Below, piece after piece: positions 18,544-62,015 of a DNA stretch of 64,000 nt; position 1 is the first letter of the stretch, and every line of letters starts with the position of its first letter. The translations under genes were made by a program, and so were the position numbers. The notes under the pieces are model-generated. The model ran no database searches. It was not told the origin of the DNA and saw nothing but the letters and a program-made list of their open reading frames with translations. The DNA is from a virus, in the IMG/VR virus record IMGVR_UViG_3300030329_006583, positions 186,001-250,000 of that record, one strand, 5' to 3'.

Positions 18544-18554
18544 TTCAATAAAAA

Positions 18555-21021: not shown

Positions 21022-21048
21022 CTATTAATCCTCCCTGCCAGTGGGTTT

Positions 21049-22007: not shown

Positions 22008-22291
22008 TTCTTGCCCCTGATCTTAACCCATGTGCCCCACATTAACGGAACAGCTAACCAATGCAAGCATAATAACCATGCTGCAGGAGCACCGGCATAA
22101 AAAGATGGATGAACTGTCTTTCCCAAGAATATGAAGAGAGCGGGAAACCCAACGTCTTCAATAATTTCCCACAACAAGAATATGACAACGAATGCCAGAC
22201 CGTTCTCTTTGAGAAAGCCTTTTAATTTCTCAATAGAAAAATGCTCAAATTTATGAACTAGGCGATCTTTTGTCCACTGAAATAACTTCAT
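22004..22291 (-). CDS. Membrane protein, 95 aa
   Basis: Amphipathic N-terminus (MKLFQWTKDRLVHKFEHFS) and two membrane helices (FVVIFLLWEIIEDVGFPALF, AWLLCLHWLAVPLMWGTW). Starts MKLF like the tagged neighbours but does not carry the L-x-E ending. ATGA overlaps on the downstream side, 1-base touch upstream. Confidence 0.68.
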   Translation of the reverse strand: MKLFQWTKDRLVHKFEHFSIEKLKGFLKENGLAFVVIFLLWEIIEDVGFPALFIFLGKTVHPSFYAGAPAAWLLCLHWLAVPLMWGTWVKIRGKK

Positions 22292-23139: not shown

Positions 23140-24218
23140 TACCATTCCCCCGCTTGTTTGGCCCTGGTACGCATGTGTTCCGGAGTCAATGTGTTAGGAA
23201 ATGTCTTAACTACATCGACTGCACCCTTCGATAAAAAGATCGCCTGCTGTGGTTCATTTTTGTGAATCAAGCCGGTACTGCGATCATAAAAGGCGTCCAT
23301 ACCGATCCCTCTCAATATGGCGTTCCACTTTCCAATAGGGGCAGCTGCCTTATCACCGGCACCTGGACTCCCACCTGCTATCATCTTTGTCAATAGCCAT
23401 ATGAGATCAATAGGCCTCTTTCGGGCTTTCTTTTGTGCCTCTTCATATATGGCAGAATTTCTCATGATCGCCGTTATGGGATTAATTCCTTGGGCCACAG
23501 CCTCCTCTACCTTCTGCACCTCATCTTCAAATGAGGTACCTGATAAACCAAATCTCTCCACGGTTTCCTGTGTATACAATTGTTTCATCGCATCATATTG
23601 CTCTGAAAGTGTGAACTCAGGTGACGTCACCAAATTTGCTCCTGCGCTGGTTTTTAATATTGAAATGAAAGGTTGTTGTGTAGCAAAAGGCAATCGTTCA
23701 GAACCTTTAGGCGAAGTAAGTTGTTGAACTGTTTTGGGAAAGAGGGGGTAAGCATAAATTCCGGCGGGTGTGTTATAATCAGAGCCGGGGTTGACACCCA
23801 CCTTATTAATGGCTGTGAAAGTAATATAATATTCCGGCTTTTCCGATGAATTCCCATCGGCATATGATTGCAATTCATTTTCAAGGGTAGGAAGTTCCAC
23901 ACCTTCTTTATCGGCACGACGGGCCTCAGCCAATGTCATTTGTATATACTTGCGCAAGAGCTTCTCATTCATCTTTCCTGTCATCCTCTCCAACATGTCC
24001 ATGGCCTCTTCCCTGGTTACAAAGTAATCACCCTCAATGGTGTAGGGTTTCTCTGAGCCATCAGGTAGAATATAACCTGTACCCACATAAAACCCGTTGG
24101 AATTTTGCATCACCTGTAATTCTGTGGGACCAAATCCTGGCCGGTGCGGCTTGGGCGACCCTGCCTTTTGAAGTAAAGAATTTCTAAACCACTTAATTTG
24201 AAAACCCTTTGGCCACAT
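23139..24218 (-). CDS. Tagged protein with internal segment, 359 aa
   Basis: The first 80 residues contain FYVGTGYILPDGSEKPYTIE and a DYFVTREEAMDMLERM helix, a small domain I recall from phages. At about residue 83 the segment MNEKLLRKYIQMTLAE starts, with AGGAAAG before its ATG, so translation may begin there too. The following domain has YYITFTAINKVGVNPGSD then NTPAGIYAYPL, a pattern known from large-phage proteins, and a C-terminus including PIDLIWLLTKMIAGG. Possibly an enzyme such as an ADP-ribosyltransferase; not established. Confidence 0.7.
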   Translation of the reverse strand: MWPKGFQIKWFRNSLLQKAGSPKPHRPGFGPTELQVMQNSNGFYVGTGYILPDGSEKPYTIEGDYFVTREEAMDMLERMTGKMNEKLLRKYIQMTLAEARRADKEGVELPTLENELQSYADGNSSEKPEYYITFTAINKVGVNPGSDYNTPAGIYAYPLFPKTVQQLTSPKGSERLPFATQQPFISILKTSAGANLVTSPEFTLSEQYDAMKQLYTQETVERFGLSGTSFEDEVQKVEEAVAQGINPITAIMRNSAIYEEAQKKARKRPIDLIWLLTKMIAGGSPGAGDKAAAPIGKWNAILRGIGMDAFYDRSTGLIHKNEPQQAIFLSKGAVDVVKTFPNTLTPEHMRTRAKQAGEW

Positions 24219-37699: not shown

Positions 37700-37945
37700 T
37701 TAATCGGTAATTATTTCTAGCTTGGAGCACTTGGCGGGACCAAAAAAACAACACTTTCCACAATTCACACAATAATTGCCTATCTCTTCCATGGTGTTAA
37801 TTTGTAATTGTTCCTCCATGGTGCGAAGGCGTTCTTTTTTAGTGTCAATAAAAATACAATCTACAAAAAGTTGATTGGCGCCATTCCACGGATATTGGCG
37901 GCATGTCTCCGGTCTTTCTTTGTAAATAGAACAAATAAATTTCAT
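37700..37945 (-). CDS. YkgJ-like cysteine cluster protein, 81 aa
   Basis: Begins MKFICSIYKERPETCRQYPW and ends YCVNCGKCCFFGPAKCSKLE, with two related Cys boxes: R-P-x-x-C-R-x-Y-P and C-x-x-C-G-x-C-C. Such boxes bind Fe or Zn in YkgJ/UPF0153 proteins; here the order of the two boxes is reversed from the usual one. Its ATG overlaps the upstream gene's TAA (TAATG). Role unknown. Confidence 0.7.
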   Translation of the reverse strand: MKFICSIYKERPETCRQYPWNGANQLFVDCIFIDTKKERLRTMEEQLQINTMEEIGNYCVNCGKCCFFGPAKCSKLEIITD

Positions 37946-38295
37946 TAGCAAAGTTTGGCTAGCTCTTCACGAATCAATTTCCTCAATTCTTTAGTGTTGA
38001 GCTTTTTATTCTCCATCAAACCAGGTGAACCTGGGCGAACTCCCATGGGATCCCACTCACCTTCTCGTTGATAAAGGTACTGATCCGTAATTCTATTTCT
38101 CTCGTTTTTCATCCAATACGCGATCTTATTGGCTTGATCATAATCCAAATCATGCTCAATTACCAGATCCCCAAATGTCATTGTGTTTAAAATCTCGTAT
38201 TCTTCCTTAGTTAAAGGTGCAGATGATAGTGACTTTTGGATTGCTGCAGCCAGCAATTCTTCGTCTGTCGCCTCTGTTAATATACGCTTGCTCAT
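37945..38295 (-). CDS. Protein with a C-terminal segment, 116 aa
   Basis: I start at MSKRILTEATDEELLAAAIQ with CAGGAG upstream. The last 17 residues, LNTKELRKLIREELAKL, are the shared amphipathic segment at the C-terminus. The body is helical and polar (DLDYDQANKIAYWMKNERNR). A tag at the end, not the start, supports a transferable module. Overlaps the next gene. Confidence 0.68.
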   Translation of the reverse strand: MSKRILTEATDEELLAAAIQKSLSSAPLTKEEYEILNTMTFGDLVIEHDLDYDQANKIAYWMKNERNRITDQYLYQREGEWDPMGVRPGSPGLMENKKLNTKELRKLIREELAKLC

Positions 38296-38334
38296 ATTAC
38301 GCTCCTGATAGTGACGTACCAATAAATATACATA

Positions 38335-49026: not shown

Positions 49027-49383
49027 TTATTTTTGAGGATTATAACCTAGCTTTTCTCGAACAGATTGGGTAATTTCTTTACCTTTTGCAGCTGCTTCAG
49101 CAAAGGGACCTAGGCCTAGAACCCACCGAACATTATCGTATTCTATCGGTGTCAGCCCCTTTTTTAAGGCATCCATATCACAATATTGATGCAAGGTAAT
49201 TTCGGTGACAGGAAGATCTTCGCCTTGGGGGCCGGGTTCAATCTCACCTGTTTCCCTAGATTCAAAAACATATAAAACCTTTGGCATTTTCTCAGTATCA
49301 GGTACATTAATAAAAGGGATCTTTGAAGTCAATCCCTCTTCCGACTCTTCATATAATATTTCCGGAACCCATTGTTCACTCAT
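49027..49383 (-). CDS. Hypothetical phage protein, 118 aa
   Basis: Contains MPKVLYVFESRETGEIEPGP, TLHQYCDMDALKKGLTPIEY and REKLGYNPQK. The ESRETGEIEPG element is familiar to me from large-phage proteins. Soluble, acidic. No enzyme motif visible. Confidence 0.65.
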   Translation of the reverse strand: MSEQWVPEILYEESEEGLTSKIPFINVPDTEKMPKVLYVFESRETGEIEPGPQGEDLPVTEITLHQYCDMDALKKGLTPIEYDNVRWVLGLGPFAEAAAKGKEITQSVREKLGYNPQK

Positions 49384-49444
49384 AGATTAAATCCTCCTTA
49401 CAACCTATTATTTTAAAATTATCTTTTAATGTAAAAATTTTAAT

Positions 49445-49636
49445 TTAGTCGTGAAAATCTTCCGTATAAATGAAGGCAACCTTATTAATGACATAATGAA
49501 TATCTCCCCGTGGGCCCCACTTAAAAAATGGTATCATTCCACGTAACATCACACATATTCCGCTACCCATTAAAAACAGTCCCACCTTACAATGCAGTTT
49601 TAACTTTTTATAATATTCATTCATGGGGATGCTCAT
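49445..49636 (-). CDS. Small membrane protein, 63 aa
   Basis: Basic start MSIPMNEYYKKLKLHCK, a membrane helix (VGLFLMGSGICVMLRGMIPF) and a short polar tail. Overlaps the 3' end of the 407-aa gene by 4 bases (ATGA). Function unknown. Confidence 0.62.
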   Translation of the reverse strand: MSIPMNEYYKKLKLHCKVGLFLMGSGICVMLRGMIPFFKWGPRGDIHYVINKVAFIYTEDFHD

Positions 49637-50856
49637 TTTTTCTTGAGATCATATGAATTTCTGAAATCATTTAAAACATCTAACAATGTTTTGCCTTGTG
49701 CTGTTTTGGCCAATGATCCCTCGTCAATCCCAAATTCTGCCTGTAAAGCCGCTAATTCTTCCTGTAACGATGATTGTAAATTCATCAGGGAATCCTGAAG
49801 TTGTTGACGCGTAGTATCTGTCGATTGTTGAAAGATTTTTTCAGCAGCGGATTTAAGTAATTCATCCTCATTAACATCGGGTAATGCCTCGTCGGGATTA
49901 AGTTTTTTACCTTCTTCTTGTGCTAGCGCCCTAATTAATTCATCTCGTTGTTCCGGATTACTTAAAAATTCCTTAGCGGATTTTTCCAGTGAAGAACGTA
50001 ATGTATTTGGGTTTGCGCCCCCCAGATCCATGCCTGCCTTGGAAGCCTTTTGGAGCCCTTCTATATATTCATCCAGAGTTTTGCTATTCATCATTTCACC
50101 TATAAGTTGCCTTGAAGGCATATAAATTTCATCTAAATTTTCCAATGCATCCCTAAAACCCTCAAGGAGCTGATCAGAAGCATCCTTGAATTCGTCCAGG
50201 ATACCCATTTCTTCCATCACATCGATGATGTCAGATTGCGATATTGCACCCCCTTGTTCCAGCAAGAGATCGTTGGTTGGATAATAAGATTCTGCCACCC
50301 CAAAAAAGAACACTTTTTTTAGTGCATTAAATGCAGTTCCTATTAAACCGGTTGGATCCTTTATTTTATCTCCGCTCTCCGCGGATTCTTTTTCAGAAGG
50401 TTTACCAAATCCAGCCTCACCAAAAAAATCTCTCACAGCATCTTTGGAATCCCAGCCTTGTTGAAGTGCCGACGCCGCCAAATACCCACCTGGATTCAAT
50501 AAAAACGCTGCTAATTTAAGATCCTCTGTATCAGCGCCTAATTTTTGGCGCAAATCAGCATGTTCCTGTTTAAGGGTTTTCACCCTTTCCTTGTAATTGG
50601 TTCTTAATTCCTTTAATTTTTTAGGATCAATAGTAACCAAAACATCAAATAAAAATTTAGTGGAAGTTAGTACATCCTTAAACCCCAGCTTAGCTGCCTT
50701 GAATACATCGCTAAAAGGTTCAACAAAAATTTTACTAAATTCGCTGGTTGACATTGCAGCAAATTCATCTTCCCTCAACAGAACCTTGGCATCTGTTTCG
50801 TGTAAGATATTGCGAATATATTTTCTTACCAACTTTTCCTGGGTAATTGCTTTCAT
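49633..50856 (-). CDS. Large tagged protein, 407 aa
   Basis: MKAITQEKLVRKYIRNILHE segment ending L-H-E. The body is mostly helical and polar, with KDVLTSTKFLFDVLVTIDPK, a short FLLNPGGYLAAS hydrophobic part and long coiled coils (SLMNLQSSLQEELAALQAEF). No known domain. Its length and helical nature recall scaffold or core proteins of heads. Confidence 0.68.
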   Translation of the reverse strand: MKAITQEKLVRKYIRNILHETDAKVLLREDEFAAMSTSEFSKIFVEPFSDVFKAAKLGFKDVLTSTKFLFDVLVTIDPKKLKELRTNYKERVKTLKQEHADLRQKLGADTEDLKLAAFLLNPGGYLAASALQQGWDSKDAVRDFFGEAGFGKPSEKESAESGDKIKDPTGLIGTAFNALKKVFFFGVAESYYPTNDLLLEQGGAISQSDIIDVMEEMGILDEFKDASDQLLEGFRDALENLDEIYMPSRQLIGEMMNSKTLDEYIEGLQKASKAGMDLGGANPNTLRSSLEKSAKEFLSNPEQRDELIRALAQEEGKKLNPDEALPDVNEDELLKSAAEKIFQQSTDTTRQQLQDSLMNLQSSLQEELAALQAEFGIDEGSLAKTAQGKTLLDVLNDFRNSYDLKKK

Positions 50857-51089
50857 TCAGGTAACCTCAATTTTTTCTTGGCTTCATTTTCATAATATTG
50901 TATCACCTCTCTTTCAAACGCATTCAACACCTGCTTTTTTGTATAGGGATCGCGCGTTGAAAACAAGGTCCTCAATTTAGGTGACAATGATTTTAATAAA
51001 TATTTCTTTACCATCATCCAATCATCAAAAAATAGTCGATGGGATATCATTATATCCAATTCTTTGATAACTTGTGATGGAATATCCAT
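50853..51089 (-). CDS. Hypothetical helical protein, 78 aa
   Basis: MDIPSQVIKELDIMISHRLF and FEREVIQYYENEAKKKLRLP: a small charged helical protein, overlapping the next gene by ATGA. Not recognised. Confidence 0.62.
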   Translation of the reverse strand: MDIPSQVIKELDIMISHRLFFDDWMMVKKYLLKSLSPKLRTLFSTRDPYTKKQVLNAFEREVIQYYENEAKKKLRLPE

Positions 51090-51128
51090 AATAAATCCTT
51101 TCTCTAATAATATCTATGTTATAAGAAA

Positions 51129-51146
51129 TTGAAAAACGTTTTTCAA
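51129..51146. promoter_or_regulatory. Perfect 18-bp palindrome, candidate operator
   Basis: TTGAAAAACGTTTTTCAA between divergent genes. The minus-strand reading also contains a TTGAAA-N17-TATAAC promoter candidate that overlaps it, so a dimeric regulator could block that promoter. The RHH protein at 61117 is a possible binder, untested. Confidence 0.45.
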
Positions 51147-51191
51147 CGTTCATTTAAATAAGACGTAAATACACTTCTTAAAGGGGGAAAC

Positions 51192-51617
51192 ATGAGTGTA
51201 GGAGCAGTAGGAGCAGTATCCAGTGGAGGCGGTGCAGCCGCAGCAGGGGCAGGACGCGTGTCTCATGGTGGTGGGGTTAGTAAAGCCGGGGCCAGTGCCG
51301 GGGTAACACCAGCAGGAAATTCTGGTGGCAATAAATCCATATCAATGGGTGATGGAAACATGGTTGGGAATTCCCAAACACAAAACATTACCACACATAA
51401 TCATTTCAACATGGGTTCTCAAGACTTTTGTGCCCTGCACAATATGTCCAATGGCAGTCAGGCCGGCGGTGTACAGGCCATGCAAGGTGGAGAGCAAATG
51501 TCAATGGAAGACATGATGAAGCTTATGATGATGATGATCATGATGAAGCTTATGGAAAAAATGATGGAAGCATTGGGCGGTGGCCAAGGCGGTGGAGCTG
51601 CAATGGCGGGTGGTTAG
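51192..51617 (+). CDS. Gly/Ala/Met-rich low-complexity protein, 141 aa
   Basis: Plus-strand gene with AAAGGGGG ribosome site. A Gly/Ala/Ser-rich first half (MSVGAVGAVSSGGGAAAAGA), a Gly/Asn/His middle and a striking Met helix near residues 100-120 (MSMEDMMKLMMMMIMMKLME) ending GGGQGGGAAMAGG. It could be an amyloid-like, metal-binding or membrane-active protein. No family recognised. Confidence 0.7.
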   Translation: MSVGAVGAVSSGGGAAAAGAGRVSHGGGVSKAGASAGVTPAGNSGGNKSISMGDGNMVGNSQTQNITTHNHFNMGSQDFCALHNMSNGSQAGGVQAMQGGEQMSMEDMMKLMMMMIMMKLMEKMMEALGGGQGGGAAMAGG

Positions 51618-51619
51618 AA

Positions 51620-52225
51620 TTAACCCATTATGATTTGCCGTACATAAGTTCTTAACATATTTTCTTGCATTCCGGGGCAAAGGATGTCACGCACATTCTT
51701 CACATCAACTCCGGCCGGCATTCCTTTCTGAAACGTATCTAGATCACAGATCTCTAAGGCATGGCGCATGGCAGTCCCCGAAATATCTGGGGTTCCCACC
51801 CCACGGGTGACGCTATCCGGATCGTCTTCTGCGACAAATATCACCTTGCCACTCTCATATAAATCTGGAAAATACCTTAGGCGATTAGAGGTAGGGTAGT
51901 TCAAGGCAGTGTCTTCCGGATCCGAATAGACCCTATAGACATCATCACCCAGGGCCTCGTTTGCCCTCTCTAGGGCACTGTAGACCTTTCGAACAGGGGA
52001 ACCACCATACTCTATGGAAACATTACTCGGCATGATTGGCTCTAGCTCTTCTTTCCACACCTGTTCCATAGCGGAGCCTAGGATAGGAAGCTGGCCTTTG
52101 CGCTTACGATCTGAAATGGAAACGTATAGGATCACCTGATCATTTTCTTCTGCGGCCTTAACAACCAGCGCATGGTGACCGGCGTGATAGGGTTTCGCAG
52201 ATACAGGAACCAATCCAATTTTCAT
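51620..52225 (-). CDS. Nucleotidyltransferase, NMNAT-like, with C-terminal segment, 201 aa
   Basis: HxGH-type nucleotidyltransferase: MKIGLVPVSAKPYHAGHHAL with H14-A-G-H17, and ISGTAMRHALEICD, the I-S-x-T-x-[LI]-R motif. Such enzymes make NAD (NMNAT) or similar. Its last 13 residues, ENMLRTYVRQIIMG, are the shared segment at the C-terminus. It is the promoter-distal gene of a four-gene tagged cluster with a nuclease and a ligase-like protein. Confidence 0.75.
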   Translation of the reverse strand: MKIGLVPVSAKPYHAGHHALVVKAAEENDQVILYVSISDRKRKGQLPILGSAMEQVWKEELEPIMPSNVSIEYGGSPVRKVYSALERANEALGDDVYRVYSDPEDTALNYPTSNRLRYFPDLYESGKVIFVAEDDPDSVTRGVGTPDISGTAMRHALEICDLDTFQKGMPAGVDVKNVRDILCPGMQENMLRTYVRQIIMG

Positions 52226-52242
52226 TTAATTTTTCCTTTCAA

Positions 52243-52596
52243 TTAAAATGTATTCAATACCACATGCGCAAACAGGGTCTCAGTTTGAGGATCCCAATAA
52301 AATTGCTTAGGCCCACCGGGCATGCCGGGAGTCAATGATGAAAAGAAATGATCGGCTTGCTCTTGCGGCGGGAGACCTTTCTTAGACGACCACACCTCAT
52401 GCTGATCCGGCTTATAACTTGCCCGCGGGATATTCTGGGTCATTGCCCTAACCTCTTCCACTGTCCCAATCTTAACATCCATCTCTCTTCCGGATGGAGT
52501 TACAATCACAGTGGGGGCGCCCATGAGTTCTGCACTCTGCTCTCGCAAGAGTACTTCACCAATAATTTTCCTGAGTCGATTCTTTGTAATTTTCAC
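52243..52596 (-). CDS. Tagged protein, 117 aa
   Basis: GTG start; MKITKNRLRKIIGEVLLRE segment ends I-G-E and L-R-E. The body has TVIVTPSGREMDVKIGTVEE, a polar middle and a FYWDPQTETLFAHVVLNTF end. Located between NMNAT-like and nuclease-like genes. No known family. Confidence 0.68.
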   Translation of the reverse strand: MKITKNRLRKIIGEVLLREQSAELMGAPTVIVTPSGREMDVKIGTVEEVRAMTQNIPRASYKPDQHEVWSSKKGLPPQEQADHFFSSLTPGMPGGPKQFYWDPQTETLFAHVVLNTF

Positions 52597-52599
52597 TTA

Positions 52600-53754
52600 T
52601 TACACCTTGATTCTATCAATAATTTGGGGGGAGCTCATAGCGAGATCCTTGTATAATTTTTTCATGACAGCCTTGGAGATGTCTCCAATCTCTTGTTTGG
52701 TCGCCTTGTCCTTTAAGATCTTCTTCACTTCATCCTGGATTGTCTTCACAAAGTTGGTACCCACCACCTTGTCAATCTCTTTTTTTGCTTGCTTACGGGC
52801 GATTTTCTCGATCTCTTTCTTATCGGTTTTGGTGAGCTCTTCAAATAATAAGGATTCACGTACTAATGCACCTATAATATCCTTAATCTCACTTATTTCA
52901 GGTGACGAAGTTGAAGATAAAAATTGATACAAGCAAGCAAATGGATTGATCTTCCCAGCGCCCTCCATGGATTCCCCGGCCAAGGCTGAAAAAGAAGAAT
53001 TAGGGGGATTAAAAGTTGTTATTTTTAATTCAGGTTGAATTTCATAAAACTGACTACGAGTCGAGACCCTGATCTTAAAATTTCCCGAACCAGCCACCAT
53101 GGGAATGCTGGAATTTAAACCACAGAATTCCAAGGCACCTTTAAGGCCCAAAGGATCTTGATCGCCAATTGTATAAAAATCATCCCCGGCCTGAAGATAG
53201 TGGGCAGCGGCCGCCTTACCGATAAGATAATGCTGGGTTATAAGATTACCTACATCCACATTTTCTTCGTTAACAAAATAACGGCTCCCTCTTTCGTTAA
53301 CGAAATTTCTCATCACCTCTAGAGGAACCGCCGCCGGATCCTTTAAGCCACCTTTGGTTGTGGGAATCTTGATAATGGTGTCCGGAGATACACCCATATA
53401 TACCTTGAGGTCATCAATAAATTGTGATGCAGTAGATGAATTATTCGCTAAATCCACAGCGGCATCTGCCACGGGTGATGTAGCATTAGAAGCCCAGGTC
53501 GAACCGTCATAATAAATTCGAGGATTGGCTAAGTTGTCTTTGTGGCCCATTTTAACTTCTACGTAAGTGGATCCCACTCCAGGAACCTCTACCAAAACAT
53601 CCGGATATCTTACATCTCCGCCAGCTGCAGAAGCCTTAAATATTTCACGACCTGCATTATTAATTGCGCCGGCGACCTCGGCCTCAAAAGCATCAGAGGC
53701 TTTAGATTCCATTAATAGCACTTGAACCCATTTACGCAATAAACGATCATTCAT
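52600..53754 (-). CDS. Tagged nuclease-like protein, 384 aa
   Basis: MNDRLLRKWVQVLLMES segment ends L-M-E. The first domain has PDVLVEVPGVGSTYVEVKMG, the D...E-x-K pattern of a PD-(D/E)XK nuclease. A second domain has a GLKGALEFCGLNSSIPMVAG element and the C-terminus is a long helical coil with DKKEIEKIARKQAKKEID. A weak segment, LVRESLLFEE, occurs near residue 298. Likely a DNA-processing protein packed with its neighbours. Confidence 0.7.
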   Translation of the reverse strand: MNDRLLRKWVQVLLMESKASDAFEAEVAGAINNAGREIFKASAAGGDVRYPDVLVEVPGVGSTYVEVKMGHKDNLANPRIYYDGSTWASNATSPVADAAVDLANNSSTASQFIDDLKVYMGVSPDTIIKIPTTKGGLKDPAAVPLEVMRNFVNERGSRYFVNEENVDVGNLITQHYLIGKAAAAHYLQAGDDFYTIGDQDPLGLKGALEFCGLNSSIPMVAGSGNFKIRVSTRSQFYEIQPELKITTFNPPNSSFSALAGESMEGAGKINPFACLYQFLSSTSSPEISEIKDIIGALVRESLLFEELTKTDKKEIEKIARKQAKKEIDKVVGTNFVKTIQDEVKKILKDKATKQEIGDISKAVMKKLYKDLAMSSPQIIDRIKV

Positions 53755-55040
53755 CCCATTCCACCCACAAATTCCCTTACATAATTACGGAGGAGCGACT
53801 CATTTTGACTCTTGGGAATGCGCATTGCAGCACCGATGATCTGGTTGAGGGGTGCAAAGGCCCCTGTGAGCTTGTAAAGTGCCTTGCTTCCAGGAGGATG
53901 TTCGAACACGATCCCCTCCATGCTGGAAGTGATGTTCTCGGATGATCCCAATTTGCCCAACTGTTTCTCCAACATCTTGCGTCTATCATCAGCCTTGGCA
54001 TCCCGCGCAGATGCAATCGCTTTCTTGGCGGATTCCAGCTCATCCTTAAGCCGATTCAATTCCTCGTCATGGCCACCGGTTAACGCCGAAGCCAATCCTG
54101 CCAACACCTCAACAGACATATCATGAATAATTATCTCCACCGGAGACAAAATGGTACCCAAGGCTTTCATCGCATTGGCCTGAGTACCGAGGGCACTAAT
54201 GCTTTTCTGCACGTCCTTCGGAAGATCTTTCTTGATATCAGCGATGGGAGGTAGGTCTTTGGATTCCATCCCTTGCCCAATCCCCATGATTCTCTTGATC
54301 AGCGTCTCTTGTTTGTGAACCGGAATTGGCAGGTCTCCGACCAAACCCGTTCGTAGTTTTTCCTCAGCATAATCGCCCAGCGTCATGTTATCTGTAACGC
54401 CTAACCCATCAAGTCGACTCGCAAGAGTATCATATAGCTCGGTACCGCTTAGGTCCTGCAGTTCTATCACCTGCGGACCAATCATCTTCCAGGTCTCATC
54501 ATCCAGATCTACCTGGGAATCATCAATGGCCTGCACAAGCTTACCGAACTCACCACCGTTCAATTGGACGTCAGCCAGTTTACCAGCTTCATCAAACTCC
54601 TGAAGGTTGTGCATGACGATGTAGTCACCACCGTAATTGATGACATTGGGCTTACCCGTATAGATAATCTCAGCGTTGATGAAACGTTGACCGCCGGACT
54701 CAAAGATCTCTTCCAGCTCCATGGGACTCAGTCGACCCAATCCCCGTTCAATAGCTGCAAACCCATTCATAAAAGCGCCTTTTGCGGGATGACCTTCCCA
54801 TTTGGCAGTGAACTCAGCGGGGTTCATCCCACCCTTGAGTAGATCACCCTTATTCCGAGCTGTTCGAATATTGCCTGTTTTGGGATCAATCTTAAACGCA
54901 AAGAAGATGTTTTGGCCATCAACCTTTTCAACCACCGGCATATCACCCCTAATCACCTTTTGGAGCACACCTTTCAATTCCCCAAAGGTAATATCCAGGT
55001 TTTCTTGTAAATGATTTAGATGACCTGCTAGCGCTCCCAT
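53751..55040 (-). CDS. Nucleic acid ligase/nucleotidyltransferase-like with C-terminal segment, 429 aa
   Basis: The N-terminal part has VEKVDGQNIFFAFK: K39-V-D-G42, motif I of covalent nucleotidyltransferases (the lysine takes AMP). Further motifs: FINAEIIYTG, SMEGIVFE and YKLTGAFAPLN resemble motifs III, IV and V. A coiled coil separates them. It may join nucleic acids or cap ends. The C-terminus carries SQNESLLRNYVREFVGGMG, a segment. A recurrent-type promoter is at 55064-55091. Confidence 0.75.
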   Translation of the reverse strand: MGALAGHLNHLQENLDITFGELKGVLQKVIRGDMPVVEKVDGQNIFFAFKIDPKTGNIRTARNKGDLLKGGMNPAEFTAKWEGHPAKGAFMNGFAAIERGLGRLSPMELEEIFESGGQRFINAEIIYTGKPNVINYGGDYIVMHNLQEFDEAGKLADVQLNGGEFGKLVQAIDDSQVDLDDETWKMIGPQVIELQDLSGTELYDTLASRLDGLGVTDNMTLGDYAEEKLRTGLVGDLPIPVHKQETLIKRIMGIGQGMESKDLPPIADIKKDLPKDVQKSISALGTQANAMKALGTILSPVEIIIHDMSVEVLAGLASALTGGHDEELNRLKDELESAKKAIASARDAKADDRRKMLEKQLGKLGSSENITSSMEGIVFEHPPGSKALYKLTGAFAPLNQIIGAAMRIPKSQNESLLRNYVREFVGGMG

Positions 55041-55063
55041 GTAACCTCCTATATTACATAGAT

Positions 55064-55091
55064 ATTATACCATATCTCATGTAATTTTGCA
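55064..55091 (-). promoter_or_regulatory. Putative promoter TGCAAA-N16-TATAAT
   Basis: Minus-strand TGCAAA, 16-base spacer, perfect TATAAT, 24 bases before the ligase-like gene and therefore before the ligase, nuclease, 117-aa and NMNAT cluster. Confidence 0.6.
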
Positions 55092-55364
55092 TTAAGGTTG
55101 TTCTATTTTTCTAGAAGCACGTAATTGGCGCCGAAGGATTTTTAAAAGGCCATTATAATGTTCACGGGCGTCGGTCCTACCGGGGCAACAATCACGGTGG
55201 TGTTTGGCGTCTTCAATCCGGTGTTCCAAATCCAAGGTACATGCCTTAGTGCCAAAAGACACCATTTTGCCCGACATTGTAAGGTGTTTATCGGGGACCG
55301 CTAGTTTGGTAGGGGATTCCTGAAGAATTTGACGAATCATATGTCGCAATCTGATATTATCCAT
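55092..55364 (-). CDS. Tagged small protein, 90 aa
   Basis: MDNIRLRHMIRQILQESP segment ends L-Q-E; the ATG overlaps the upstream TAA (TAATG). The body includes MVSFGTKACTLDLEHRIEDA, a KHHRDCCPGR element (CC with His nearby, maybe metal binding) and LLKILRRQLRASRKIEQP. Not recognised. Confidence 0.7.
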   Translation of the reverse strand: MDNIRLRHMIRQILQESPTKLAVPDKHLTMSGKMVSFGTKACTLDLEHRIEDAKHHRDCCPGRTDAREHYNGLLKILRRQLRASRKIEQP

Positions 55365-56008
55365 TATTTCCATAACTCCCGAATTTTCATACGAACCCCG
55401 GATTTATCTGCTGCTTCGCCCACCACGATGGGCATATCTTCGTCCCCTTCTTCTTCCTTTGTTTTTACAGTGGTTACCTTAATTTCCTCTGTCTCTTCTT
55501 CCCTTGAAGGTTTCTCGGTTGGTTTCATTTCAATGCCGGCCTTCCCGGGATCAAGGGCTAGTGTCCCAGGTTCACCATCTACCATCATATCTGCCAACCC
55601 GGCCAGGAAAACATATAGCGATTGTTTCTCGGCTGTCGTCAATTGCTCGATGTAGGTAGTAAGAGCCTTTTTCACCTTGGCATCCTTAACTGATTTACCT
55701 GAGCGCATTAGATTTAACATTTTAAAAATATCGCCGGTTTGAGGATCTGCAATTTTTTCCTGGCCCGGTTTTGCGACGTCTGTAGTGGTGATTGTCTCCT
55801 CAGAGGTTTCTTCCTCCGTTTCTTCTTCAGCTTCATCGACATTTTTTTTCTGCGAATTATCATCTTGCTCGGCTGTTTGCTGTGCCAATTGTTTTTGACG
55901 AAGGCGTTCCAATGTGCCGGTATCTTCCATTGCTGCGTCCACAGCCTCACGTACAATATTACCCAAAAAATGTTCTAGATCTTTCACATTATTAAATACC
56001 CTAGACAT
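55364..56008 (-). CDS. Acidic protein, possible head core or scaffold, 214 aa
   Basis: Start MSRVFNNVKDLEHFLGNIVRE has a loose segment (I-V-R-E). A Lys/Glu-rich disordered middle (EAEEETEEETSEETITTTD), a helical part with IFKMLNLMRSGKSVKDAKVK and a second acidic tail. Composition resembles phage head core proteins. Overlaps both neighbours by TAATG. Confidence 0.68.
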   Translation of the reverse strand: MSRVFNNVKDLEHFLGNIVREAVDAAMEDTGTLERLRQKQLAQQTAEQDDNSQKKNVDEAEEETEEETSEETITTTDVAKPGQEKIADPQTGDIFKMLNLMRSGKSVKDAKVKKALTTYIEQLTTAEKQSLYVFLAGLADMMVDGEPGTLALDPGKAGIEMKPTEKPSREEETEEIKVTTVKTKEEEGDEDMPIVVGEAADKSGVRMKIRELWK

Positions 56009-56187
56009 TATTTGCCCCCTCGCAACCACTTAATCCTATTCTGCCACCGCTCTGCATAAAGGCGGCGGTACTTTCTTTGCGGGGATTCTGTTGGTTCATT
56101 GGGTTGACGTGTATTTTTATGACGTGATTCATTCTCTTTTTGAAGAATAGAATCCATAAATTTATCAAACTGAGATTTTTTACTCAC
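56008..56187 (-). CDS. Small basic phage protein, 59 aa, GTG start
   Basis: GTG with AGGAG before it. MSKKSQFDKFMDSILQKENE, a polar middle and RRLYAERWQNRIKWLRGG, whose A-E-R-W-Q-N-R part I have seen in small phage proteins. Basic and helical, so nucleic acid or capsid contact is possible. TAATG overlap with the downstream gene. Confidence 0.72.
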   Translation of the reverse strand: MSKKSQFDKFMDSILQKENESRHKNTRQPNEPTESPQRKYRRLYAERWQNRIKWLRGGK

Positions 56188-56205
56188 TTGCTTCTCCTAT
56201 TAATA

Positions 56206-56652
56206 TTACTTATCAATTTCGTGAGGAATTATCACCGAAACTTCAGCACAATGATTTTCATCATCAAACGATATTGTATAACCTATATCTGTATCCACCT
56301 GGCGAGAATCAACAACATCATCATAAATGGTTTTGCAAACATACCCAGTTAACTTACCCGCTGATATCATTTTAATTGCCTGATCATCAGAGGCAACAAT
56401 TGTAATAATTTGTTCTTTTGAATCCTTAATTAAGCCTTTAAGTGCACCAGCAATGACAACATCCCCAAACGTAAAATGACAGGTAAAATTAGAAACACCC
56501 CATACGTCGGGATCTTCCGCTAAATCAAAATCCACCATTCCTTCAAGGGAATCGCTGATTATTAAATTATCAGGATTTGATAATACCCTATCAAATTCTT
56601 GATCAATATTCTGTGTAGTGTCCTTCGAATTCAAAATTTTGCTCCGTAACAA
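56206..56652 (-). CDS. Hypothetical protein, 148 aa
   Basis: The frame starts with a TTG and overlaps the previous gene by 50 bases, so the real start may be later, within the first 18 codons. Body is beta-rich: FTCHFTFGDVVIAGALKGLI, GYTISFDDENHCAEVSVIIP. Not recognised. Confidence 0.58.
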   Translation of the reverse strand: MLRSKILNSKDTTQNIDQEFDRVLSNPDNLIISDSLEGMVDFDLAEDPDVWGVSNFTCHFTFGDVVIAGALKGLIKDSKEQIITIVASDDQAIKMISAGKLTGYVCKTIYDDVVDSRQVDTDIGYTISFDDENHCAEVSVIIPHEIDK

Positions 56653-57028
56653 TATTTTTCTTTATAGCATCAGCAGTTTGTGCATATTCCTTATCCAGCT
56701 CAGTAATGTCATCCACCTCGTGTGTATAAACTTCAATAATTACATCGGGATAATTAATGGTTATTTTTGCATGATGATTAAACTCTTCCTGGAAATCTAG
56801 GATATCACCAACAAATAAAGCCAATTCGCGCTGTGAATCGAAAACATATGTTTTCATTAAACGCCTGGGTGATTCTACTACACGCCAAGTAGCCTTATGT
56901 GGAATAACAGGCGATTTGTGATCCATATTTTTTAACTGGGGTAAAAGATCCACTAAACATGAATCATCGGAACCTTTTTCTTCCACGTCAAAATATTCAC
57001 ACATTAATTTTCGCAAATTGGATTCCAT
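56603..57028 (-). CDS. DCoH/pterin dehydratase-like protein, 141 aa
   Basis: The C-terminal half matches pterin-4a-carbinolamine dehydratase (DCoH): RRLMKTYVFDSQRELALFVG, FQEEFNHHAKITINYPDVII and EVYTHEVDDITELDKEYAQT. The active-site H-H is present but followed by A instead of P. DCoH recycles pterin cofactors; it may also have a non-enzymatic role. The N-terminal 50 residues are unrelated. A start SNLRKLMCEYF resembles the segment only weakly. Confidence 0.72.
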   Translation of the reverse strand: MESNLRKLMCEYFDVEEKGSDDSCLVDLLPQLKNMDHKSPVIPHKATWRVVESPRRLMKTYVFDSQRELALFVGDILDFQEEFNHHAKITINYPDVIIEVYTHEVDDITELDKEYAQTADAIKKNIVTEQNFEFEGHYTEY

Positions 57029-58264
57029 TTATTCTTTCCCAAATTCATCCTGATGGGTTGCGGTTGCCTGTAATGCTTGTGCCAACACCTTCTTTCTTTT
57101 ACTAGCCCCTGCTTTATTCCAGGCATCGTAAGCAGTTGAAATTAAATCACCTTCAACCTTTGCTAAATTTGAAAGTTTAGAAAAAGCCTGCAAAGCATTT
57201 TTTACAGCTTTTTCAGTTTGATTAACATCCATTTTTTCTGAAGCTGCATCTTTCATAATCTTATTTTTTAATTTTTCCGGATTTTTTGGTGTATCCCCAA
57301 AAACCTGGTGGAGTAGGGTTTGTTTGCTTCTTTTGGGCAGGCCCAATTTTTCAATTTCACTCTCCACACGTTTGCGTGTCGTTCTCAAAATATTTTGATA
57401 TGCGGGTAATAAAAATCCTCCCACCAAAAAAAACCTAAATGAATCCAAAGCCTCAACCTCACCAGGCGCAGCCAAGAGGTCTGCCATATCATTTTTATCA
57501 ATATACCCCTCGCCTTCTAGCATTTCAACAAACTCACTAATCGCAGTCTGCTTAATTGCATCCAACTCTGACTCATCAACATTTTCCATGGTAAAATTCA
57601 ATCGACCAAGGATTCTCTCCAGGCTTTGTCTAACTCCACTAGCGGCGCTATAACCAAATTTGGTAGCAAGATCCTCTAGGCCCATCCCCTCTATTTGTTC
57701 CACCTGATCCAGTGTTAAGGATTCTTCTTCCTCCTCTTCCGGATCGAAGGTTTGATACCCTTTGCGAAATTCTTCGTATTCATTTTCATCAAAATCAATA
57801 TCCATTTGTTCCAGAAGAATTTTAAGGCTTTTTCTTAATTTCTCAATCTTGTGACTTTCATTGGTTTCCAATTCAACTACCTCTGCGTCGGTGACATCAT
57901 CTGCAATTTCGGGATTTTCATGTTTTTCCACCGCGGAATCCAGTAAATCCTGCAAACGATTATAAAAATATTCAACCTGATCATTAGGAACACGCTGCCC
58001 GAGAGCGTCTGCAGCCAAACCTAATTCAACCGGATTTGCCGGTATATATGTATCATCATCTACAGGTGGGAGATTAGCCGATAATTGTACCGCCATTTGT
58101 TCAGAAGGCAACACCGGGGTTTCGGGCGGTGAAGGTATATCAGCGGGCTCAAATTGTGTACCGGCACGTGAATTATCCACGTCGGTATAAGTGTTATACA
58201 CGTCTTCAAATAAAACCCTTTTGAGATAATTCTCCAAAACGGCCTTCGTAATCTTAATACTCAT
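57029..58264 (-). CDS. Tagged helical protein, 411 aa
   Basis: Start chosen at MSIKITKAVLENYLKRVLFE (segment ends L-F-E); the 29 codons upstream overlap the neighbouring gene and look non-coding. Acidic linker, then helical parts including KIEKLRKSLKILLEQMDIDF, a central helix domain (VEQIEGMGLEDLATKFGYSA) and a second helical domain with ALQAFSKLSNLAKVEGDLIS. No enzymatic motif. Confidence 0.68.
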   Translation of the reverse strand: MSIKITKAVLENYLKRVLFEDVYNTYTDVDNSRAGTQFEPADIPSPPETPVLPSEQMAVQLSANLPPVDDDTYIPANPVELGLAADALGQRVPNDQVEYFYNRLQDLLDSAVEKHENPEIADDVTDAEVVELETNESHKIEKLRKSLKILLEQMDIDFDENEYEEFRKGYQTFDPEEEEEESLTLDQVEQIEGMGLEDLATKFGYSAASGVRQSLERILGRLNFTMENVDESELDAIKQTAISEFVEMLEGEGYIDKNDMADLLAAPGEVEALDSFRFFLVGGFLLPAYQNILRTTRKRVESEIEKLGLPKRSKQTLLHQVFGDTPKNPEKLKNKIMKDAASEKMDVNQTEKAVKNALQAFSKLSNLAKVEGDLISTAYDAWNKAGASKRKKVLAQALQATATHQDEFGKE

Positions 58265-58272
58265 CTCAACTC

Positions 58273-58755
58273 CTAATCTGCAACCTGCCCCAAGGCATAA
58301 CCCGTGGCTATGGTCACTACTATCCCACCAATCAACCCAACAGAAAACCAAAATTCACCAGATTCATACCATGGTGTAGGTTGAAATTTACTCTCCAAAA
58401 AACCAATTTGATCTTCCTTGATTTCCAGGATTTGATCATGTTTAAACTTTAGGGCATCCAGCTCCGCAATTTTTAGATCTAATTGCAATTTATGCTGAAT
58501 AGATAATACCTCTAAAGCCTTATCCTTTTCAATCTTGCACTGTTTGTCTTTGTTTTCTAATTCAACCGCAAGATTGGCGGCTGCCTCAGTACTGAAAAGT
58601 GTACCTGCAAATGGGGCTTTTGCACCCTTTTGAATTGTAATTATTTTTTCACCCGGGGAATCTGCAAAAGCGGAAATGGGATAAATACATACAAAACCAA
58701 TGAAAAAAAGGTTAGTGAAAAATGCTATCCATTTTATCATGATTATCTTTAACAT
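58273..58755 (-). CDS. Exported coiled-coil membrane protein, 160 aa
   Basis: Signal (IGFVCIYPISAFADSPG), a short periplasmic part with KAPFAGTLFSTEAAANLAVE, a coiled coil (LKIAELDALKFKHDQILEIK) and a C-terminal membrane helix (FSVGLIGGIVVTIATGYALG). The topology fits a virion or lysis-accessory protein; spanin is possible. TAATG with the upstream tagged gene. Confidence 0.68.
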   Translation of the reverse strand: MLKIIMIKWIAFFTNLFFIGFVCIYPISAFADSPGEKIITIQKGAKAPFAGTLFSTEAAANLAVELENKDKQCKIEKDKALEVLSIQHKLQLDLKIAELDALKFKHDQILEIKEDQIGFLESKFQPTPWYESGEFWFSVGLIGGIVVTIATGYALGQVAD

Positions 58756-59843
58756 TAGTCATTTAACCCTGCCAGCCTGTGCCACCTTTCCAAAACAAGA
58801 TCGTCGCGATTTTCCCGACTTTCCTTTTGGGGATTGCCCAAAGCGTTTCCAATAGACGTCAGCATCGGGATTAACTCGTCGGCATTGCCGTCCACAATAT
58901 GAACATTGTCATGTGTTAATCCACCGCCGGTCCCAATATAGGCGCCTGACCATCGATGGTGACCGTCTAAAATTTCCCCAGCAGAGGTCACGAATGCACC
59001 ACCCATATCACTCAAATCAGTATTACCCGTCCCCTGCAGAAATGCAAATAGCAATGACTTGCCAGCAAGAATATTACTTTGGGTAGGAATCATGGCAGAA
59101 TTTGCAAGGGAACCTCCCACTTTAACATCAATATTATCGTCCCCTTGATCACCGTCATATTTTCCTTTTGTCAAAAACGCAAGAGCCTTCCCTACCGGAT
59201 CTGCACCGCCGCCGGGCATTGCATTCATTCCATGCCGAGGATATTTATCTTCTCTTACTAATCCCTCTTCTTTCGGCTCGGGTTGTTTTCCTGCTTCAAA
59301 TTCCTTCTTTTTTTCATCAGAAAGGGTATCCAACCAAGCATCCAAACCTTCTTTGTCGGCGGCATAACTTGCCTCAATATCCACGTTGAATTTACCCCCG
59401 GGCGTCAATGCATCCTTCACCGCAGCGGCATCCTCACCCTCCAGGGCTGGCATATCTTTTTTTGCAGGCGCAGTGTTGGGCAGGGCAGCACCAACTTTTT
59501 CTATCCTATTTGTCAATGATTCCTTGCCTACTGACTCTGCCCATTTCTTAATGGCATCAGCGCCGCCGGCTTTTGCAATCGCGCCATTAGCCCAACCTGT
59601 TGCATTCATCATCGCTTGAATCAACGGGGCATTCTCGTCTCCCGACACCAATTGTTCATATGCATCTGCACCACCAAGATCGGCAATATTTGTCTTCGTG
59701 GTAACATCAATAAATGCGGCGTCGTCGGTGGTATCCCCTTGTTCAAACAACAAGGTCGCCAGGTTTGGTGAATTGGTAGTTTTTAAATCTTTGGTTTCTT
59801 GCAAAATTAAATATCGTAATTGAGCCGGTGTTAACTTTTTCAT
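58755..59843 (-). CDS. Tagged ParB/DGHHR-type protein, 362 aa
   Basis: Start at MKKLTPAQLRYLILQE (segment ends L-Q-E). Later: SAMIPTQSNILAGKSLLFAF and AGEILDGHHRWSGAYIG, the pattern of ParB-like nuclease/CTPase folds in phages (D-G-H-H-R-W). The last residues LERWHRLAGLND carry an R-W-x-x-L-A-G-L end motif also seen in the last gene of the window. Function unknown, but it may bind or cut DNA. Confidence 0.7.
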   Translation of the reverse strand: MKKLTPAQLRYLILQETKDLKTTNSPNLATLLFEQGDTTDDAAFIDVTTKTNIADLGGADAYEQLVSGDENAPLIQAMMNATGWANGAIAKAGGADAIKKWAESVGKESLTNRIEKVGAALPNTAPAKKDMPALEGEDAAAVKDALTPGGKFNVDIEASYAADKEGLDAWLDTLSDEKKKEFEAGKQPEPKEEGLVREDKYPRHGMNAMPGGGADPVGKALAFLTKGKYDGDQGDDNIDVKVGGSLANSAMIPTQSNILAGKSLLFAFLQGTGNTDLSDMGGAFVTSAGEILDGHHRWSGAYIGTGGGLTHDNVHIVDGNADELIPMLTSIGNALGNPQKESRENRDDLVLERWHRLAGLND

Positions 59844-59872
59844 TCTTTTCTTCTGCTCCACTTTGGGGAAAT

Positions 59873-60283
59873 TTATCCCTCTCCTGTATATATATCAAAT
59901 CCGGTCAGTTCCGACAATTTGTTTGTTATCTCATCTGGGTTGTCTAAATTTTTTTCTATTATTTTTTTGACTTCCTGCTTTTTCTTTTCGGACAATTGTT
60001 TTTCCAAATCATCGTATTTCTTTTCTATCGCTGCGATCGCTTCCTGGTATTTTCTCTCTGCTTCTTCTTTCTTTTGTATCTCCATACGGTGGGCTTCCTC
60101 TATTATCCCTATCTCTTTTTCATAATCTTTTTTAATTCTATCTGTGATTTCGGAATAGTTAAAGTCGCGTCGAGCCACCAACCAAATCATTACAGGTATG
60201 GCTATCCCTAGAAATAATTTCCAGTTTCTTTTACACCACGCCCAACATTTTTTACCTAATGAACTCAACGCTACCCAGGTCAT
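59873..60283 (-). CDS. Membrane coiled-coil protein, 136 aa
   Basis: I start at MTWVALSSLGKKCWAWCKRN; the upstream part lies in the neighbouring gene. Short polar region, one membrane helix (LFLGIAIPVMIWLVARR) and a long coiled coil (KEEAERKYQEAIAAIEKKYD). This inner-membrane plus coiled-coil layout matches i-spanins. Follows two small membrane genes. Confidence 0.65.
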   Translation of the reverse strand: MTWVALSSLGKKCWAWCKRNWKLFLGIAIPVMIWLVARRDFNYSEITDRIKKDYEKEIGIIEEAHRMEIQKKEEAERKYQEAIAAIEKKYDDLEKQLSEKKKQEVKKIIEKNLDNPDEITNKLSELTGFDIYTGEG

Positions 60284-60285
60284 CC

Positions 60286-60471
60286 TTATGCTCCATGTTT
60301 CCAGGCCATCACAGCATCGATGACACTTTGGCCACCAATATATACCACTGCAATCATACCCCATGTCTCAGAATCTAGATTGGAATAAGCCATCAAACCG
60401 GTGGCTGTCAGGAAGACCAAAAGCTTCCTGGAGATTAATTTTGCTAGCACCTTATCTAAAGCTGCCCTCAT
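60286..60471 (-). CDS. Holin-like membrane protein, 61 aa
   Basis: Two membrane helices: KLLVFLTATGLMAYSNLD and TWGMIAVVYIGGQSVIDAV, with an N-terminal basic helix (LDKVLAKLISRK). This shape and its place beside a second small membrane protein and a coiled-coil membrane protein suggest a holin. Confidence 0.65.
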   Translation of the reverse strand: MRAALDKVLAKLISRKLLVFLTATGLMAYSNLDSETWGMIAVVYIGGQSVIDAVMAWKHGA

Positions 60472-60496
60472 ATCATTACTCCTTTAGTGAAAGCGA

Positions 60497-60742
60497 TTAC
60501 GCCTTACCGGCTAACCCTCGGCTAAAAATGCCGTGAAGAACACCCAAAGCAACCAGGCCGACAAGGCCCTCGCTACCGAGCGACTTTGTCAGCGCCACGA
60601 TGCCACCGACCACGTCTACTGGGAAAAATGGAACCGCAGCCCCAAAAAGAATTTGCAAAACCACCGCGAGGGCCAAAAGGCACACGCTAAGTTCCGTAAA
60701 TGCTTTAACGCCATTTGTTACTTTTTCTAATGCACTCATCAC
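60497..60742 (-). CDS. Holin-like membrane protein, 81 aa
   Basis: Two to three helices: FTELSVCLLALAVVLQILFG, FPVDVVGGIVALTKSLG, LVGLVALGVLHGIFSR. A polar N-terminus (MMSALEKVTNGVKA) and a short basic end. Likely the first holin or anti-holin of the cluster. Confidence 0.65.
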   Translation of the reverse strand: MMSALEKVTNGVKAFTELSVCLLALAVVLQILFGAAVPFFPVDVVGGIVALTKSLGSEGLVGLVALGVLHGIFSRGLAGKA

Positions 60743-60819
60743 TTTTCTCCTATGTTAACCTCCCATAATGGGAAGCGCAACTTACGTTGCAAGCGATGTT
60801 TATAATTATTAGGCACAGA

Positions 60820-61074
60820 TTAGTTTGGCAAGTTCTCATCCGGATCATCGTCACCCCTTATAAAATAGTCGTAAGGATCCGGTTCGGTAAGGCTTTTTAA
60901 CACCTTATAAATTTCTGACATGTCTGTGGTAAGCTCTGCGTTAGTAATTGCAAGATATCCCAAAACTGTATTTACTTCCTCTAATTTCTTTTCCAACAGC
61001 TCTACGCGCCTACCTATTTTGGTATAATCATGACTAACTGATTGCGATAAATGTGTAATTGCCTTTTCCTTCAT
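60820..61074 (-). CDS. Coiled-coil protein, 84 aa
   Basis: Helical: TKIGRRVELLEKKLEEVNTV and LTTDMSEIYKVLKSLTEPD; the C-terminal end is acidic (RGDDDPDENLPN). Possibly a small regulator or structural adaptor. Confidence 0.65.
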   Translation of the reverse strand: MKEKAITHLSQSVSHDYTKIGRRVELLEKKLEEVNTVLGYLAITNAELTTDMSEIYKVLKSLTEPDPYDYFIRGDDDPDENLPN

Positions 61075-61116
61075 ATTTCAAATATAACCAATAAAATATT
61101 ATTTTTTAAGTTTTAA

Positions 61117-61398
61117 TTATTCACCTGTTATCGGATTGGAATCCTCAATTACGCGAAATATAGATTCAGCGTCCGTCTGGGAAAATTTACGACCTGCTTT
61201 GGTTCTCTTGCGAAGCTGCATTTCTTCCAATGTTTTTTGCATGTGAGAATCACCCTCCACTATTTGTCGTGCCAATTCCTCAAATATCTCTTGCATCGAT
61301 AGACCATGCCGAAAAGCAGTTATCTTGATTTCTGTATGTGTTTCTTTGGTTAGATTTATGTGAAGTGATTTTTTGGTCTCGAAATCACGATATGACAT
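61117..61398 (-). CDS. Ribbon-helix-helix regulator, 93 aa
   Basis: KKSLHINLTKETHTEIKITA followed by FRHGLSMQEIFEELARQIVE: the strand, helix, helix pattern of Arc/MetJ-type DNA-binding proteins. The C-terminal part is basic (LRKRTKAGRKFSQTD). It likely binds operator DNA as a dimer of dimers. Confidence 0.78.
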   Translation of the reverse strand: MSYRDFETKKSLHINLTKETHTEIKITAFRHGLSMQEIFEELARQIVEGDSHMQKTLEEMQLRKRTKAGRKFSQTDAESIFRVIEDSNPITGE

Positions 61399-61406
61399 TT
61401 AGTGTC

Positions 61407-62015
61407 CTATATCCCGCCTTCAGCTGCGATTGGGCTAGCCCCTACACCCATCGGATCCACTAAATCCTGAGGGATGTCTAGACTAATATCGTACCTGAGA
61501 TCTAAAATATCCAACATCGCGGCTGCCTGCTCGGGCCCGTATTTGTCGGTGATATAATCTTCTGCTTTTTTTACAATTAACGCCTTCATATCCAGAAGTG
61601 AATCATAATTCTTGGCTAACCTTGCTACGTCACCTGCAAATGTTTCCATATCAATTACCGGAATTTCCTCCTGTTCGTAAAGCACACGAACTATTGAGTA
61701 TTTGTTGGCCTCATTTTGTGCCTGACCTTTGGCGGCATTGATAGCATCTGTCTCAAAATCCACAAAAAGGGCATTAAGTTCATCATCAACTGATTTACCC
61801 AAAGGTTCCACTTCATCCACCCCTGGTTCTATTTGGGCCTCTTCCGCCTCAGCTTCAACTTCCGCTTCTGGGCCTTCTTCATCACCAGGTGTTTCTTCCG
61901 CATCTTCCTCAGTGGCTTCTTCAGTATCAGCCATATCGGCTTCTTCTTCTTGTTCCACAAGGAGCCTGAACTCTTCGTTTATTAGCTTTTTTAAATACTT
62001 TTTTGTCAATTTCAT
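61407..62015 (-). CDS. Tagged acidic protein, 202 aa
   Basis: MKLTKKYLKKLINEEFRLLVEQ segment (I-N-E, L-V-E). An Asp/Glu stretch follows (EATEEDAEETPGDEEGPEAE), then a helical core (KSVDDELNALFVDFETDAIN, DMKALIVKKAEDYITDKYGP). Composition resembles the acidic core proteins of T4-like heads. ATGA overlap with the downstream neighbour. Confidence 0.7.
   Translation of the reverse strand: MKLTKKYLKKLINEEFRLLVEQEEEADMADTEEATEEDAEETPGDEEGPEAEVEAEAEEAQIEPGVDEVEPLGKSVDDELNALFVDFETDAINAAKGQAQNEANKYSIVRVLYEQEEIPVIDMETFAGDVARLAKNYDSLLDMKALIVKKAEDYITDKYGPEQAAAMLDILDLRYDISLDIPQDLVDPMGVGASPIAAEGGI

Follow-up and report, generated by a model that had tools for sequence, protein, structure and literature searches.

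A ligase-like protein, an NMNAT-like enzyme and a nuclease-like protein with tags at either end as candidate head cargo of a T4-type phage

We analysed a minus-strand locus at positions 51620-55040 of a 64,000-nucleotide stretch of viral DNA (the window), which comprises bases 186001-250000 of the 267,118-base IMG/VR phage record IMGVR_UViG_3300030329_006583. The locus encodes a ligase-like protein (53751-55040, 429 amino acids), a nuclease-like protein (52600-53754, 384 amino acids), a 117-amino-acid protein with a GTG start (52243-52596) and an HxGH nucleotidyltransferase (NTase; 51620-52225, 201 amino acids) resembling nicotinamide mononucleotide (NMN) adenylyltransferase (NMNAT). All four open reading frames (ORFs) are present as described in an earlier note made from the DNA letters. 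The same short tag is used at either end of these proteins, N-terminally in the nuclease-like and 117-amino-acid proteins and C-terminally in the ligase and the NTase, as that note had also reported. We propose that the ligase, the NTase and the nuclease-like protein are tagged head cargo delivered with the DNA, in which the ligase would seal nucleic acids, RNA being the likelier, and the NTase would supply a cofactor; taken as a whole, we hold this reading to be evenly poised between right and wrong.

A shared tag at N- and C-termini

To score C-termini we used a 12-column profile trained on N-terminal tags only and applied it to 341 gene C-termini. The NTase came first with a score of 20.9 (ENMLRTYVRQIIMG, 51623-51664, minus strand) and the ligase second with 18.1 (ESLLRNYVREFVGGMG, 53754-53801, minus strand), against 10.3 for the 99.9% point of shuffled C-termini. 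Ligase or NTase C-termini from relatives (loci L021, L012, L104, L039, L013 and L038) also lay near the top, and the C-terminal tag of the ligase is kept in L012, L013, L021 and L104. Use of the same tag at either end of proteins, which is new, is thereby supported statistically, and the earlier claim of a tag at both ends holds.

At the N-termini, all on the minus strand, the tag profile identifies DRLLRKWVQVLLME in the nuclease-like protein (53707-53748), which ends in LxE, a site of the T4 prohead-protease type. The 117-amino-acid protein begins with MKITKNRLRKIIGEVLLRE (52540-52596), ending LLRE/QS (a slash marks the site here and below); this LLRE/QSA resembles VLRE/QSS, a proposed site in the N-terminus of the major capsid protein. 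The profile also finds the same N-terminal tag, IRLRHMIRQILQE, in a 93-amino-acid gene product encoded upstream of the ligase (55092-55373), a gene that adjoins the ligase in relatives too. Genome-wide, about 39 ORFs are tagged, mostly N-terminally, with clusters at 179-182, 197-209 and 233-248 kb. The N-terminal tags come in two flavours, LLRxYIRxLLxE and MKITKRQLRRIIKEE; the latter occurred in no paper searched, full-text searches for the KRQLRRII tag and for DUF6267 (see below) having yielded none.

After the helix, [LI]xE is found in 38 of 39 N-terminal tags versus 60 of 306 other genes, an enrichment partly inherent in the definition of the tag. The phage encodes a T4-type S77 prohead protease (E 2e-27), so that an N-terminal helix followed by a prohead-protease site, the hallmark of a T4-type capsid targeting sequence (CTS), is found together with the protease. 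It also encodes a T4 gp23-type capsid protein (E 1e-64), nearest to those of LR756508, Flavobacterium immuto phages, Mel-JY01 and RM378. The C-terminal tags end without [LI]xE and therefore, if they are targeting signals, are probably not removed like the N-terminal ones. In L015 the ligase and NTase form one chain with the tag between the domains.

Several further tag-like elements were seen. A third probable C-terminal tag, KKLNTKELRKLIREELAKLC, closes a 125-amino-acid gene product (window 37945-38322), and a 276-amino-acid protein (window 18729-19559) has a degenerate N-terminal tag plus an internal one, ESLLRSVIKGLLKEN, at residue 192, and is possibly a fusion of two tagged proteins. N-terminal tags occur in small-gene clusters at window 11704-23145 and 49027-62015 and at G000:179590-182675. 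A gene adjoining the prohead protease (G000:44716-45129) starts with a tag-like helix, MAKLSRKMLKSLVKECLVE, and possibly encodes a core or scaffold protein. The C-terminal helix EVNEALNYLLQKLGV of one fused subgroup was considered as a shared tag and rejected, being absent from other genes in those loci.

Two linked enzymes and their nuclease-like neighbour

The K-V-D-G and E-G-I-V-F motifs that the earlier note had pointed out in the ligase-like protein are present. Motif I is E38-K39-V-D-G-Q-N44 (54909-54929, minus strand), in which K39 is the predicted adenylated lysine; motif IV is E375-G-I-V-F379 (53904-53918, minus strand), with E375 and G376 invariant and V378 and F379 more than 90% conserved; and motif V is K390-L-T-G393 (53862-53873, minus strand), with K390, T392 and G393 invariant. 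Across 51 aligned relatives, E38, K39, D41, G42, N44, R62, E124, E375, G376, K390, T392 and G393 do not vary, so the motifs are more than chance. Motif I (KxDG) together with motifs III, IV (EGxV) and V (K), the signature of the covalent nucleotidyltransferase superfamily, is thus found, and IMG/VR holds at least 580 relatives.

Structure prediction, which the earlier note had named as a check, gave an AlphaFold model (predicted local distance difference test, pLDDT, 89.4; predicted template modelling score 0.87) with the nucleotidyltransferase fold. The model comprises a covalent nucleotidyltransferase domain with a helical insertion of about 150 residues between motifs III and IV; about 36 residues, tag included, follow motif V and form no domain. 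Ligases of this superfamily account for almost all of the first 19 PDB matches, and most top matches are RNA ligases (T4 Rnl2, Rnl1, Naegleria; E 0.016-0.1, probability at most 0.92). In BFVD, after the protein's own family, the first annotated enzymes are again RNA ligases (E 8e-4 to 4e-3). An hhalign comparison with the T4 Rnl2 family placed motifs I, Ia and III in register (P 0.0023; two unrelated control profiles gave P 0.01 and 0.1), with motif I aligned to EKIHGTN of the Rnl2 profile. On the predicted model, RNA ligases are a better fold match than DNA ligases. Sequence searches with the ligase (Pfam, PHROGs, PDB) returned nothing usable: the Pfam model RNA_ligase PF09414 did not match it, reached only 13.9 bits in one relative (cut-off 27) and had no match in the genome, and no NAD-dependent DNA ligase adenylation domain (PF01653) was found. 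The protein represents a hitherto unrecognised ligase-like family. A likeness of its N-terminus to domain Ia of NAD-dependent ligases, noticed by eye, was left unused, because a comparable LEN element lies equally far from the lysine in T4 Rnl2.

The NTase has the expected HxGH motif, H14-A-G-H17 (52175-52186, minus strand; H17 invariant in 48 relatives), and S149-G-T-x-x-R154 (51764-51781, minus strand; R154 more than 90% conserved), so that the HxGH and (S)xTxxR motifs of NMNATs occur in a HIGH fold. Its AlphaFold model (pLDDT 95) gave an archaeal NMNAT with NAD(P) as the top fold match (E 3e-4), followed by NadD, PPAT and ATP sulfurylase. The predicted substrate is likely but not certainly NMN; GxHH replaces HxGH in some family members. 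That the enzyme supplies NAD, as the earlier note had it, remains a guess, the superfamily fold leaving the substrate unfixed and the phage having no NadV. A tblastn search with the NTase against cultured phages returned nothing.

The two enzymes are closely linked. Among about 90 ligase loci, some of which overlap or repeat, 67 ORFs are fused to an NTase, 21 loci have a separate NTase nearby and six have none, at least three of these six ending at a contig edge. The order is ligase-NTase in most fusions and NTase-ligase in Mel-JY01 and LR756508. Fusion in both orders argues strongly that the ligase and the NTase act jointly.

A fold search with the ligase, the only route to cyanophages, led via S-PM2 to Pfam family DUF6267: the ligase is this family or a relative of it in S-PM2, P-HM2, S-SM1, S-CAM1, Melnitz-3 and Vibrio phage EniLVp02, and in these six phages it usually adjoins or is fused to the NTase. 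Just upstream, S-SM1, Melnitz-3 and EniLVp02 encode a protein with a D..[ES]xK pattern. The cyanophage copies adjoin gp41 helicase and primase genes, and the P-HM2 DUF6267 protein matches 466 phage records. The NTases of the window phage and the cyanophages are clearly homologous as judged by profile comparison (hhalign probability 97.5 against the P-HM2 NTase). The earlier note had named synteny in related phages as a check; the trio recurs in ocean phages and in cultured T4-like phages.

For the nuclease-like protein, the note's assignment stands in part. The core YPDVLVEV..YVEVKMG holds the D and ExK of a PD-(D/E)XK-like motif, which recurs in relatives and in the ligase-adjacent gene of other phages; relatives read D..ISLK, D..VSMK or D..IEAK, with D plus ExK in the window gene and L104 and SxK in others. 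No match was found in Pfam, profile libraries or solved structures (PDB), and because no library confirms the fold, PD-(D/E)XK stays a motif-level call. The middle parts diverge strongly among relatives; the tag and a C-terminal domain of about 90 residues are kept. This helical domain (ELTKTDKKEIEKIARKQ...IDRIKV; window 52600-52870) is 70% identical to that of L013, whose middle differs in length and sequence. The protein upstream in P-HM2 (P0006) was set aside as a nuclease candidate, since its ISLKK is present but the pattern match is spurious.

The ligase and nuclease-like genes overlap by 4 bases, and gaps of 3 and then 17 bases follow, which makes co-transcription of the four genes plausible. 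The single promoter claimed earlier did not emerge: a sigma-70 scan showed no excess (8 sites versus 7.8 expected). The NTase gene lies on the opposite strand in relatives L013, L103 and L104, so these genes do not generally form a single operon. The 117-amino-acid protein has no Pfam or PHROG match. A convergent plus-strand gene at window 51192-51617 begins with a stretch rich in Gly and Ala and contains a run rich in Met, MMKLMMMMIMMK; L012 has a similar gene next to the NTase (10286-10687). Other cargo-like proteins lie near the ligase (L013:4765-5943, L017:8480-11227 and L012:582-2252): one is tagged and has a ParB-like DGHHRW motif, in LR756508 a ParB-like domain is fused to NTase-ligase, and L012 has a tagged P-loop protein.

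Packaging, proposed action and rival explanations

Encapsidation, which the earlier note had raised, is supported by homology. Mass spectrometry of purified virions of cyanophage S-SM1 revealed T4-GC190, a protein of the NTase family (PMC3037559). This protein begins MKKFSAFLNE/A, and its gene and the DUF6267 gene (T4-GC71) overlap. Melnitz-3 has T4-style leaders on the nuclease-like protein (MQGFKTFLSE/A), the ligase (MINFSKYITE/D) and the NTase (MKKFSEIIE/A). In this cultured Methylophilales phage the three enzymes with leaders are nearly consecutive (L224:1881-6544). Ligase leaders in metagenomic phages read MISFDKFFVLNE/GG, MSSLLLE/GG and MKFLKSYEEFLNE. In T4, where CTS function has been described (PMC9026906, PMC3012670), the ten N-terminal residues of IPIII are enough for packaging and are removed by gp21; C-terminal propeptides occur in Alt and gp21 as well (PMC9026906; PMC5694885). 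Homology, the tags and the one experimental detection together lend good support to packaging of these enzymes in T4-type heads; packaging in this phage itself is what we infer from them.

These data allow us to propose how the module may act. The tag would be a capsid-targeting helix that binds the prohead core during assembly. The S77 prohead protease would probably remove N-terminal tags, which end in (L/I)xE; C-terminal tags, having no cleavage site, may stay on. The cargo, an RNA-ligase-type nucleotidyltransferase, an NMNAT-like HxGH enzyme and a PD-(D/E)XK-like protein, would most likely enter the new host with the DNA and act at once, the ligase sealing nucleic-acid breaks, more probably in RNA such as cleaved tRNA than in DNA, and the HxGH enzyme making or restoring a nucleotide cofactor, most likely NAD. 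Cleavage, injection, substrates and a repair function are points that we infer. A more specific version, in which the ligase takes AMP from NAD and the linked NMNAT remakes NAD from the released NMN and ATP, would be a packaged cofactor-regenerating ligase; we think it quite improbable. If true, it would let phages seal nucleic acids on arrival despite destruction of NAD by immune NADases, and the targeting helix would work at either end of the cargo.

Several points weigh against the proposal of delivered cargo. Packaging is less sure for the ligase than for the NTase, because an obvious leader is missing from many cyanophage DUF6267 proteins (MSKNTHLEHLED...), and we know of no experimental precedent for C-terminal tags as targeting signals. 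The PDB fold scores of the ligase all lie above E 0.001; the second lysine that RNA ligases usually have in motif V is missing from it, as is a C-terminal domain. A search of the phage for KptA, another RNA ligase and NadV found none and no complete repair pathway was visible; known RNA and DNA ligases were not found in the genome either, and the surrounding repair pathway could not be rebuilt.

The same packaged trio could act on DNA, trimming and sealing nicks or ends of the genome on its entry or just after packaging, much as the earlier note had guessed. This would fit the nuclease-like partner and the position of the cyanophage copies beside gp41 helicase and primase genes. It would also fit the record, which may be incomplete, in that no DNA ligase of the known Pfam types, whether dependent on ATP or on NAD, was found there. 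The nearest folds are, however, RNA ligases; position 44 of motif I is Asn, as is typical of RNA ligases, where DNA ligases have Arg; no OB domain follows motif V; and T4 DNA ligase is matched poorly at the profile level. We consider DNA an unlikely substrate. Unlikely, too, is that the module serves NAD metabolism rather than joining, the NTase restoring NAD destroyed by defence and the ligase-like domain consuming AMP or transferring it to protein, RNA or a small molecule. It is established that defence systems deplete NAD and that phages salvage it (PMC9503650), the NTase model matches archaeal NMNAT best and an HxGH partner is nearly obligatory, but the phage has no NadV, some members carry GxHH, and HxGH enzymes include PPAT, cytidylyltransferases and others, which leaves the substrate unfixed.

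Two further explanations concern the tag itself. It might serve within the producing cell as a docking helix, for a complex that is intracellular or belongs to the core, with no delivery and only passive presence in the virion, as its occurrence at C-termini without a protease site and between the fused domains of L015 would allow. This is distinctly doubtful, since in other phages the same enzymes bear T4-style leaders and the NTase homologue was detected in purified S-SM1 virions. Chance occurrence of short amphipathic helices at protein ends, with no common function, is very improbable indeed: the tags are short and leucine, isoleucine and charged residues common, but the scores fall far outside the shuffled controls, the C-terminal profile test disfavours chance, and the tags are conserved in relatives at 40-70% identity.

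What is new here is the proposal of a function for DUF6267, the module, and the use of a tag at either end. Under the proposal of delivered cargo, DUF6267/phrog_455, found in hundreds of cultured cyanophage records, gains a testable function, as do its relatives on no fewer than several hundred contigs of uncultured phages, and is tied to a virion protein already detected by mass spectrometry. The proposal points to enzymes for the repair of nucleic acids or NAD as common head cargo of T4-type marine and jumbo phages. A targeting helix that may be active at either terminus could be useful for loading phage heads with cargo.

Comparison with known systems

With DUF6267 (PF19782; phrog_455; T4-GC 71 of cyanophages; function unknown according to Pfam) the window ligase shares an N-terminal HLxHLE motif, KxDG, EG[IFY]V and K[LI]xx..F[AS]xxN, an adjacent or fused NTase and a nuclease-like gene upstream. 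The window ligase gives no hit to the DUF6267 model, whereas cyanophage proteins score 374-417 bits; the sequence link is weak (hhalign P 0.024), and the relationship rests on fold (S-PM2 protein, E 2e-5) and context. The nucleotidyltransferase fold is shared with T4 Rnl2, Rnl1 and Naegleria RNA ligase, and motifs I, Ia and III are in register with Rnl2. Unlike these enzymes, the window ligase has the extra helical residues between motifs III and IV; the C-terminal helical domain that follows motif V in Rnl2-type ligases is not found, and motif V reads KLTG rather than KxK. The NTase has the HxGH and SGTxxR motifs and the Rossmann-like fold of archaeal NMN adenylyltransferase (MTH150)/NadM, at 19-20% identity and a TM-score of about 0.5.

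S-SM1 T4-GC190, a cytidylyltransferase-like virion protein, is homologous to the window NTase and likewise adjoins the ligase gene; it carries an N-terminal T4-style leader, whereas the window NTase has a C-terminal tag. In common with the T4 CTS, IPI-III and Alt, the window tags are short helical leaders ending in (L/I)xE, on diverse cargo, in a phage with a T4-type prohead protease. They differ from the T4 CTS in sequence (LLRxYIRxLL) and in being found also at C-termini and, apparently, between domains.

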